Below are positions 5,519-7,921 of a stretch of 21,491 bases of DNA, piece after piece. The notes beneath the pieces were generated by a model. The model searched no databases, had not been told where the DNA came from, and saw only the letters and a program-made list of their open reading frames with translations. Source of the DNA: a virus; IMG/VR virus record IMGVR_UViG_3300017788_000207, positions 1-21,491 of that record. One strand, written 5' to 3'. Numbering within the stretch: the stretch's first letter is position 1; each line of letters begins with the position of its first letter. The translations under genes were made by a program, and so were the position numbers.

Positions 5519-5550
5519 TTTAGTGAGATATAGAATTATATTATACTAAA
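5519..5550 (-). promoter_or_regulatory. possible translational operator hairpin before gene 43
   Basis: The minus-strand leader has TTTAGT (5545-5550) pairing with ACTAAA (5519-5524), and a smaller ATATA/TATAT stem inside. It spans the stop of the upstream gene and ends 8 bases before the gene 43 ATG, which lacks a clear Shine-Dalgarno. T4 gp43 binds a hairpin in its own leader; sequence similarity to that operator is not evident, so the role is inference. Confidence 0.3.
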
Positions 5551-5906
5551 GTTTTGTAGTATTGTAAAATTTCTTCTTGTGGTTCATATGCAGTAAGAAT
5601 TTCATTTGAACATAATAAAAATTCATTACTGCGAGAATATAAAGGATATTTTTCAAAAACTACATATCGCCGAATTGTATATTGTTCATCATCAATATCT
5701 GTTTCTGTAGATAATAGTAAACTATTATGACCTAATTTACGAGATGGTGAAGAGTTTTTATAGTAACTTTCATGATAAACAATTTCATAAACATTCTTTA
5801 AATAACAAGATGGTTCTTCATCAAACTGTTCTAATTCAGCAATAAGATGCTTGTCATTCTTTAAGATAAAAATTTGAATTAAAGTTTCTAATTGTTCAGT
5901 TTCCAT
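5541..5906 (-). CDS. small unknown protein, family related to 5908-6228 and 13652-14068
   Basis: 121 residues, no named family recognised. It begins METEQLETLIQIFILKNDKH and contains LIAELEQFDEEP, a pattern like the first strands of the LSm-like small beta-barrel proteins common in T4-like phages. Its last 40 residues (YPLYSRSNEFLLCSNEIL, then EPQEEILQYY) line up with the C-terminal ends of the two other small proteins of this window. That suggests a paralogous family. It follows the 106-residue gene with a one-base gap, and precedes gene 43 by 29 bases, so it is likely co-transcribed with the polymerase. Function is unknown; a regulatory RNA-binding role is only a guess from position. Confidence 0.8.
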   Translation of the reverse strand: METEQLETLIQIFILKNDKHLIAELEQFDEEPSCYLKNVYEIVYHESYYKNSSPSRKLGHNSLLLSTETDIDDEQYTIRRYVVFEKYPLYSRSNEFLLCSNEILTAYEPQEEILQYYKTLV

Positions 5907-5907
5907 T

Positions 5908-6228
5908 TTATTTCCTATTTTCTAAATAACTATCAACAATATCTTTAACTGGATTAACAAGAGATACAACATAATCCCTATTAATAGTTATTGTATCATC
6001 CTCAGTAAAAAGAATCCACGGTGCAAATTTAACAGAAATTTCATTCATAGATTTATTATATGATAAATTGTTTGATGAAATTTCAATTTTTTCTGGTTCT
6101 GAAACCGTATAAATTATATATGGTTTACTTAATTGATAATACAACATTCCTGTTATATTGTCAATAGCTTGTTTTACATCTGATATTACATATTCACCAG
6201 ATTTCAATAATAATAACTTTATAGACAT
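5908..6228 (-). CDS. small unknown protein, possible LSm-like fold
   Basis: 106 residues. The N-terminus (IKLLLLKSGEYVISDVKQ) reads as a strand-turn-strand with the GEY/GEE turn seen in small phage LSm-like proteins. The centre is YQLSKPYIIYT, and the end is APWILFTEDDTITINRDYVV then NPVKDIVDSYLENRK. These blocks align by eye with the 138-residue protein at 13652-14068 (TGEEIIS, YPYKI, YPWFKL, HKNKIISI). It starts 3 bases after the nucleotidyltransferase-like gene ends, and a perfect late-promoter motif lies 35 bases upstream. No enzymatic motif is seen. The fold assignment is inference. Confidence 0.8.
   Translation of the reverse strand: MSIKLLLLKSGEYVISDVKQAIDNITGMLYYQLSKPYIIYTVSEPEKIEISSNNLSYNKSMNEISVKFAPWILFTEDDTITINRDYVVSLVNPVKDIVDSYLENRK
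6136..6164 (-). promoter_or_regulatory. sigma70-type promoter inside the 106-residue gene
   Basis: On the minus strand there is TTGACA (6159-6164), a 17-base spacer and TATTAT (6136-6141), 11 of 12 consensus matches. It lies about 230 bases upstream of the 121-residue gene and would serve that gene, 43, uvsX, 41 and mazG as an early transcription unit. It is inside coding sequence. Confidence 0.45.
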
Positions 6229-6974: not shown

Positions 6975-6982
6975 AAAGATAA

Positions 6983-7076
6983 AAAAAGTTAATTAAATAA
7001 TTGACATTAATTAAAACTCCATTAAAGATAAATTTAATGGAGTTTTAATTACTGTTAATTATTTAATTAACTTTTT
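6983..7076 (-). terminator. very long hairpin terminator after hsp20
   Basis: Two nested perfect inverted repeats: outer arms 6983-7002 and 7057-7076 (20 bp), inner arms 7009-7026 and 7033-7050 (18 bp). The 6-base linkers pair except for one mismatch and one G-T. Together they make a stem of about 44 bp with a 6-base loop. On the minus strand it starts at the hsp20 stop codon and ends in a run of seven T, so it can terminate the hsp20 transcript. The length is far beyond a usual terminator. Confidence 0.75.
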
Positions 7077-7560
7077 ATACAGATTTAGTCTCAGATTCTA
7101 CAGAATTTATTTTCCAAACAGTTTTCTTTTTATGTTCTGGAATATTTTGTTCCAAATAAATTAAAAGAAGTCCATTCACAAATTTAACATCAGTTACTTT
7201 TAAATTGTCTTTTAATTGCCATGTTCTATTAATAGATCTTTTTGCAATACCTTTATATAGGTATGTTCTATTATCAGAAAAAGATGTTGATGTTCCAACA
7301 AAAAGAACATTATCCTGTGTTGATACTTCTAATTCTGAATAATCATATCCAGCCAAAGCAACTTCAAGTACATATTTAGATGTTTCTGAAACATCACCAT
7401 CTGATTTCTTTTCAGATTCTTGAATGATATTATACTTTGGATATCTATCTGATTGAGAATATGAATCAAGTCTTTGAAGCATTTCGCCAAGTCCAATTGT
7501 ATATGGAGTAAGTTCACTCCAACGTGTTGACTCATTGCTTATTTGCAATTTATTAGACAT
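7075..7560 (-). CDS. hsp20: Hsp20-family small heat shock protein
   Basis: 161 residues. It has an alpha-crystallin domain: YVLEVALAGYDYSELEVSTQ (about 63-82) and DNVLFVGTS, then a KRSINRTWQLKDNLKVTDVK stretch and the closing strand VNGLLLIYLEQNIPEHKKK (about 127-145). These match the IbpA/Hsp20 pattern, including the A-G-x-(n)-GxLxI features. The N-terminal PYTIGLGEMLQRLDSYSQS matches IbpA-like phage proteins. It is a cytoplasmic holdase that binds unfolded proteins. Hsp20 genes are widespread in marine T4-like phages, often near genes 43 and 62. The gene has its own promoter and a structured 5' leader resembling a ROSE RNA thermometer, and ends in the long hairpin. The start is supported by AGGAG nine bases upstream. 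Confidence 0.93.
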   Translation of the reverse strand: MSNKLQISNESTRWSELTPYTIGLGEMLQRLDSYSQSDRYPKYNIIQESEKKSDGDVSETSKYVLEVALAGYDYSELEVSTQDNVLFVGTSTSFSDNRTYLYKGIAKRSINRTWQLKDNLKVTDVKFVNGLLLIYLEQNIPEHKKKTVWKINSVESETKSV

Positions 7561-7607
7561 ATTTTTCTCCTAAAAGCAAGAATTTTAAGAAGCCCCGAAG
7601 CGACTTC
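7561..7607 (-). promoter_or_regulatory. ROSE-like RNA thermometer candidate in the hsp20 leader
   Basis: The predicted transcript begins near 7607. First comes a G/C-richer hairpin (7589-7607) capped by a cUUCGg tetraloop. Next, CUUGCU (7575-7580) can pair across a UUU loop with AGGAG (7567-7571), the ribosome site, leaving one G bulged; two more U-A pairs extend it. A UUGCU sequence masking the Shine-Dalgarno with a bulged G is the hallmark of ROSE elements before bacterial small heat shock genes. Pairing is read by eye, not folded. Confidence 0.6.
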
Positions 7608-7613
7608 ATTATT

Positions 7614-7642
7614 ATTATATAGTATATAATTCAAAATTTGAA
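7614..7642 (-). promoter_or_regulatory. sigma70-type promoter of hsp20
   Basis: On the minus strand TATAAT (7614-7619) lies 17 bases from TTCAAA (7637-7642, four of six matches to -35). Start is predicted near 7607, right at the first leader hairpin. A 13-base palindrome (7630-7642, arms TTCAAA/TTTGAA) overlaps the -35 box. Confidence 0.5.
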
Positions 7643-7753: not shown

Positions 7754-7873
7754 ATGAATAAAAATCAATATCCAGATAGAAATACAGAATATATGAAAGA
7801 ACAATGGGGAACTACTCATTTAGTAACAGATTATATTTATATTCCACCTAAAAAAAATAAAAAAGACAAATAA
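7754..7873 (+). CDS. 39-residue unknown protein, the only plus-strand gene
   Basis: 39 residues, beginning MNKNQYPDRNTEY and ending in a basic KKNKKDK tail, with TTHLVTDYIYIPP in the middle. It has a strong AGGAG ribosome site seven bases before the ATG, upstream late-promoter-like motifs and a terminator hairpin directly after its stop. This complete set of signals supports a real gene although it is too short for most gene finders. It is hydrophilic and rich in K, Y and T, with no signal peptide or membrane segment. It is wedged between divergent hsp20 and convergent regA, in an otherwise minus-strand block. No family is recognised and the function is unknown. Confidence 0.7.
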   Translation: MNKNQYPDRNTEYMKEQWGTTHLVTDYIYIPPKKNKKDK

Positions 7874-7876
7874 ATA

Positions 7877-7921
7877 AAAAAATAGACAAAGAAAGTTTTA
7901 ATCTTTCTTTGTCTATTTTTT
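7877..7921. terminator. bidirectional intrinsic terminator
   Basis: Perfect 19-bp inverted repeat (7877-7895 and 7903-7921) with a 7-base loop, flanked by A-runs on one side and T-runs on the other. It can stop the plus-strand small gene and, on the minus strand, regA, whose stop codon overlaps its edge. Confidence 0.9.

Follow-up and report, generated by a model that had tools for sequence, protein, structure and literature searches.

The 47-nt leader of a phage hsp20, the gene for an IbpA-type small heat shock protein, is read here, with a probability of about 0.8, as a compact two-hairpin ROSE-like RNA thermometer that would open with heat to permit translation of the chaperone. The gene lies in a fragment of a T4-like phage, a 21,491-base IMG/VR virus record referred to below as the window. 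ROSE-like thermometers are defined by a U(U/C)GCU stretch and a bulged G opposite the Shine-Dalgarno (SD) sequence; the leader has two to four hairpins, and this one is the last of them (PMC11182007, PMC3669281). In alpha- and gammaproteobacteria, more than 40 have been reported (PMC4166951). The window leader carries U(U/C)GCU against the SD, a bulged G, and this pairing in the last of two hairpins before a small heat shock gene, which bears out the ROSE-like label given to it in the first-pass annotation. At the level of sequence comparison, the structure of both hairpins and the pairing of the SD are established.

Hairpin II is the proposed thermosensor. At ordinary temperature it would keep ribosomes off the hsp20 SD; being weak and bulged, it would be the first to melt on warming and would release the SD. 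Hairpin I would stay folded on warming as a stable companion of hairpin II, with probable roles in guiding hairpin II folding and in shielding the 5′ end.

Leader architecture in the window

The hsp20 leader occupies 7607-7561 of the minus strand and reads GAAGUCGCUUCGGGGCUUCUUAAAAUUCUUGCUUUUAGGAGAAAAAUAUG from 7607 (Table 1). Hairpin II is composed of UUCUU (7582-7578), the bulged G (7577), CU (7576-7575), a UUU loop (7574-7572), and AGGAGAA (7571-7565), and the hsp20 ATG (7560-7558) follows right after its end. The window places UUGCU (7579-7575) opposite the SD, while most homologues have UCGCU and some phages ACGCU or AUGCU. The linker between the two hairpins measures 2-15 nt in nearly all homologues. 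The first-pass annotation had described a UUCG-capped hairpin at the likely transcript start, a CUUGCU box facing AGGAG with one bulged G and a UUU loop, and a compact arrangement of about 47 bases. This sequence description is correct in every detail: the capped hairpin is present at 7607-7589 with a predicted +1 near 7607, the box and its pairing are read exactly so at 7582-7565, and the leader spans 7607-7561. A fourU thermometer was considered and rejected, as the UUUU of the window abuts AGGAG without a loop (7575-7567) and pairing is impossible.

Table 1. Positions of hsp20, its leader elements, and its probable promoter in the window
Feature	Position	Strand	Basis
Probable promoter TTCAAA-17-TATAAT	7614..7642	-	sigma-70-like, 10/12 consensus match; -10 box 7619-7614
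Hairpin I, UUCG-capped stem GAAGUC[G]C-UUCG-G-GGCUUC	7589..7607	-	bulged G 7601; covariation in homologues
Linker UUAAAA between hairpins I and II	7583..7588	-	sequence
Hairpin II, ROSE-like anti-SD/SD, UUCUU[G]CU-UUU-AGGAGAA	7565..7582	-	sequence; held-out model R1
Shine-Dalgarno (SD) AGGAG, within hairpin II	7567..7571	-	sequence
hsp20, IbpA-type small heat shock protein, 161 aa	7075..7560	-	Pfam HSP20 PF00011, E 2.4e-9; tree

Transcription probably starts near 7607, the first base of hairpin I, as predicted from the promoter in Table 1. Promoter matches of 10/12 arise at chance rate in this AT-rich stretch of the window. Of 125 phage leaders, 111 have a box of TATAAT type or of the late TAAATA type immediately before hairpin I, in most cases at a distance of 3-7 nt; such a box is present in 26 of 395 control stretches. 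It is therefore probable that hairpin I forms the very start of the transcript.

On window evidence alone, hairpin II is unremarkable. When the upstream bases were shuffled, an equally long bulged hairpin (7 bp) arose in 163 of 5000 cases (about 3%), and the folding energy of the leader is ordinary (z-score -1.06). Across homologues, the same hairpin is far beyond chance.

Conservation, covariation, and distribution

Homologous loci were gathered through RegA, an Hsp20 profile, and annotated phages; a search of viral contigs with the window Hsp20 protein alone gave no close relatives, and regA and the Hsp20 profile were used instead. A strict test required the bulged G to be flanked by at least three outer and at least two inner pairs, in a hairpin that includes the SD. 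It was passed by 140 of 141 distinct hsp20 leaders, by 4 of 391 SD-bearing leaders of other genes at the same loci, and by 41 of 2820 shuffles. These sequences are related and not independent, so covariation weighs more than the count.

Covariation was assessed on a seed of 36 length-matched leaders that contained neither the window nor contig L087, a viral contig described below; length matching was adopted because the 3′ arm came out misaligned when full leaders were aligned with MAFFT. In this seed, 94% of cells are paired, and 9 of 14 pairs have changes on both sides. Its covariation score is 0.50; shuffles give 0.18 and slid controls no more than 0.12. None of 500 shuffles equals the seed in the percentage of paired cells, in covariation score, or in the count of double-changed cells. 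RNAalifold, with no structure supplied, recovered both hairpins and both bulged Gs. Across homologues, 5 of the 7 pairs of hairpin I show covariation and its bulged G is retained, and in hairpin II the bulged G is unpaired within a conserved GCU core in 36/36 seed sequences. A 61-sequence alignment that includes SAR11, and that was fitted to the model, gives the same picture.

The compensatory sets in hairpin II include CUC/GAG, UCUC/GAGA, AGAC/GUCU, GAC/GUC, GUC/GAC, UUUUAC/GUAAAA, AUC/GAU, and GUCUU/GGAGAC. Compensation persists where the SD itself changes, as in the GUC/GAC set, in which the SD becomes GGAC. The first-pass annotation had made its reading depend on whether the UUGCU/AGGAG pairing is kept in homologous leaders, and UYGCU/SD pairing is indeed retained there with compensatory changes. 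The middle outer pair of hairpin II is A-U or U-A in 61/61 sequences, and the outermost is G-C or C-G in 59/61. Stem strength thus seems to be kept as well as pairing, at positions that the SD also constrains.

The exact 19-mer of hairpin I occurs once among 2.9 million viral contigs, in L087, directly before an hsp20. The gene neighbourhood of L087 differs from that of the window, and its hairpin II, GUCUU[G]CU-UUA-AGGAGAC, is a compensated version. In this part of L087 (6535-6645), the leader hairpin stands about 20 bases behind a tRNA gene and has a U run at its end; it may double as a terminator.

R1 is a covariance model built without the window. It finds a sole match in the window, at 7606-7566 (both strands of 21.5 kb; 13.0 bits, E 0.032), a modest score that falls short of E 0.3 when 306 kb are searched; the L087 leader scores 11.5 bits. 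About 80 related contigs each contain one strong R1 site, at hsp20, as do genomes such as Syn9, S-PM2, P-SSM3, P-SSM4, S-RSM4, and S-CAM3. By inspection, hairpins of like kind are present in the hsp20 leaders of Pelagibacter phages HTVC008M, Mosig, HTVC115P, and HTVC103P, phage C48C1, and Pseudomonas jumbo phage MIJ3, and the inspected hsp20 leader of Vibrio phage IBT_VpB-34 is without one.

Among bacteria, R1 matches occur in 44 of 147 Pelagibacteraceae (SAR11) genomes, one each with a single exception. Each of the 12 matches that were inspected stands immediately before hsp20, and some of the contigs concerned are about 1 Mb long. The hsp20 leaders of SAR116 and other alphaproteobacteria also contain a CUC[G]CUU/AAGGAG hairpin, preceded by a further hairpin that resembles a bulged-G copy. 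In the SAR116 leaders of L176 and L178, this extra upstream hairpin has its own UUGCUUUGAAGGAGA-type core and no start codon, an apparent copy of the SD hairpin. In 151 picocyanobacterial genomes, the only matches are in one phage contig and at one marginal site, and 14 (pico)cyanobacterial hsp20 leaders that were checked contain no credible ROSE hairpin.

The Rfam models ROSE, ROSE_2, and ROSE_3 gave no match in the window at the gathering threshold or at E values up to 10, and they stay below the gathering threshold in the phage and SAR116 relatives. Of the Rfam comparison proposed in the first-pass annotation, membership in a curated model thus falls away and the diagnostic ROSE features stand. 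As judged from sequence, the window element is best read as part of a phage/SAR11 ROSE-like branch that reaches no Rfam threshold.

Predicted temperature response and alternative explanations

Computed alone, hairpin II of the window has a folding energy of -2.4 kcal/mol at 20 °C and -0.1 kcal/mol at 37 °C, and reaches zero near 38 °C. The same model places this crossing near 53 °C for the phage median and near 68 °C for the validated E. coli ibpA ROSE hairpin, with ΔG37 values of -0.1 kcal/mol for the window, -1.9 for the phage median, and -4.1 for E. coli. On these energies, the phage switches, and that of the window most of all, would open at lower temperatures than the E. coli switch, which fits cooler habitats. 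Hairpin I is more stable than hairpin II by about 4.5 kcal/mol on average, and the energies of hairpin II vary less (sd 1.1 kcal/mol) than those of hairpin I (sd 2.4).

The median unpaired fraction of the SD at 20 °C is 0.07 in hsp20 leaders and 0.35 in control leaders. An SD mostly unpaired at low temperature would have counted against the first-pass reading, and in the window the SD is not free there: the probability that four SD bases are all unpaired is approximately 0 at 10-37 °C, although the SD as a whole is predicted to be only about half paired at every temperature tested, with no temperature trend. Folding at several temperatures, also proposed in that annotation, did not yield a clean switch. 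Nearest-neighbour models predict gradual and incomplete opening over 10-47 °C with no sharp melting, and pairings with the coding sequence compete in some folds. The same models over-stabilise the validated E. coli ROSE hairpin, which makes them poor judges of melting.

That hairpin II is a fixed translational damper, or answers another cue such as magnesium or ribosome loading, is quite unlikely as an alternative to a physiological temperature switch. Such a damper would agree with the little SD opening that folding models predict up to 47 °C; however, these models misjudge the validated E. coli hairpin, making it even more stable. A protein-controlled translational operator, in which Hsp20 itself or RegA binds the hairpins and represses translation while temperature acts indirectly, is unlikely. 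The translational repressor RegA is encoded next door to hsp20, and a conserved structured operator would leave the same covariation. Against it stands the presence of the element before hsp20 in SAR11 genomes, in several cases on contigs about 1 Mb long; a phage RegA would not be expected in these genomes. The specificity for hsp20 and the design shared with the E. coli ibpA hairpin both favour ROSE. E. coli IbpA is reported to repress its own translation, and Hsp20 self-repression could operate alongside thermosensing.

It is very improbable that hairpin I is only a 5′ stabiliser or a terminator remnant and that the SD pairing arose by accident in a leader rich in pyrimidines. In the window alone such pairing is a 3% event, but conservation in 140 of 141 leaders against a 1% background, together with the compensatory changes in hairpin II, argues against accident. 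A terminator would fit the hairpin of L087, which stands behind a tRNA gene and ends in a U run, but hairpin I of the window has no U tract after it. Covariation refutes this explanation as a full account, and 5′ stabilisation is possible as an added role of hairpin I beside the thermometer.

The ROSE-like thermometer of Pseudomonas ibpA is the closest in build, with a 61-62 nt leader, two hairpins, and a stable hairpin I (PMC3669281). It shares with the phage leaders an SD paired with U(U/C)GCU in hairpin II, a small heat shock gene, and an unpaired AUG. The phage element differs in being shorter (about 47 nt) and phage-borne, with a weaker hairpin II, a hairpin I that combines a conserved bulged G with a UNCG/GNRA-type tetraloop, and arm sequences that drift widely, even in the SD. 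The E. coli ibpA element, identified by Rfam RF01832 ROSE_2 at 100 bits, has a hairpin (CUC[G]CUG-AUUU-CAGGAG) that is nearly the same as the CUC[G]CUU-N3/4-AAGGAG of phages, whereas its leader is longer, its 5′ hairpin is different, and its SD hairpin is more stable in the same energy model. RF02523 ROSE_3 gives weak sub-threshold matches exactly at the hsp20 leader in two relatives, with 26.8 bits (E 0.026) in C48C1 and 21.8 bits in a genome of SAR116; neither reaches the gathering score of 43, and the window gives no match.

Recorded phage thermometers are those of lambda cIII, SPbeta blyA, and a gut-phage sigma70 (fourU) (PMC11182007, PMC4166951). They are likewise phage mRNAs whose ribosome site is under RNA structure and temperature control, but they involve other genes and folds, and none is ROSE-like or precedes hsp20. 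The Synechocystis hsp17 thermometer (PMC4477652) also serves a small heat shock gene with a short leader hairpin; unlike the window leader, it has only one hairpin, which contains a 1x3 internal loop. Some marine ibpA genes are reported to be preceded by the manA motif (PMC2864571); this motif was rejected as the identity of the element, as it is absent from the 20 hsp20 loci searched. No earlier report of an hsp20 thermometer in phages was found in the open-access literature searched.

Probable origin of hsp20 and its leader, and genomic context

The Hsp20 tree comprises 69 rows. Phage Hsp20s group with those of SAR11 and SAR116 and with E. coli IbpA, and a 100/100 branch separates them from all cyanobacterial Hsp20s; the window protein lies inside the cyanophage clade (support 97/85) on a long branch. 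Together with the distribution of the leader, the tree makes the gene and its leader look like one proteobacterial-type cassette. Most likely, a proteobacterium was the source from which phages took hsp20 together with its leader, or the pair is common to phages and SAR11; transfer may have run in either direction. An HSP20 domain is absent from 28 of 41 picocyanobacterial genomes, and T4-like phages of such hosts carry hsp20. It is a little short of an even bet that T4-like marine phages bring a portable proteobacterial cassette, in which an IbpA-type hsp20 comes with a ROSE thermometer of its own, into cyanobacterial hosts, most of which have neither.

Among the core genes of T4-like cyanophages, hsp20 is one with no established role; the core-gene paper lists it, suggests a role in capsid maturation, and in the passages searched makes no mention of a leader structure (PMC3037559). 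If the portable-cassette reading is true, a core phage chaperone, and perhaps virion yield, would be directly tied to seawater temperature by a virus-borne sensor tuned cooler than the enterobacterial one. A conserved thermometer would imply a temperature-gated dose of hsp20 during infection in very abundant ocean viruses and a like control in SAR11 bacteria, and a link from sea temperature to phage production would become testable. The very small set of known phage thermometers would gain a whole clade, and the ROSE family would reach past its curated models.

The window phage resembles Kyanoviridae such as S-CREM1 and S-H38 in its major capsid protein (MCP, 70% identical) and UvsX (77%). Despite these cyanophage-like proteins, its GC content is only 20-33%, which is unusually AT-rich; most cultured cyanophages lie far above this range, and the host of the window phage is uncertain. 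As in cultured cyanophages, hsp20 is flanked by the RegA gene and by genes leading to DNA polymerase. An AT-rich inverted repeat at 6980-7079 (47 bp, 94% complementary) overlaps the hsp20 stop codon. It is the probable terminator of hsp20, which thus looks to be transcribed as a single gene. An unlisted plus-strand ORF at 7754-7873 (39 codons, good SD) is divergent from hsp20 and had no match in a Pfam search. Between this small ORF and regA lies an AT-rich stem of 19 bp (7877-7921), almost perfect and with U tracts on both strands, that is probably a two-way terminator. A perfect 24-bp AT-rich inverted repeat separates the helicase and uvsX genes (1849-1906), and long AT-rich hairpins seem to be the usual terminators of this phage. 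At 5541-6228, two DUF6561 paralogues lie side by side and adjoin a nucleotidyltransferase-like protein.
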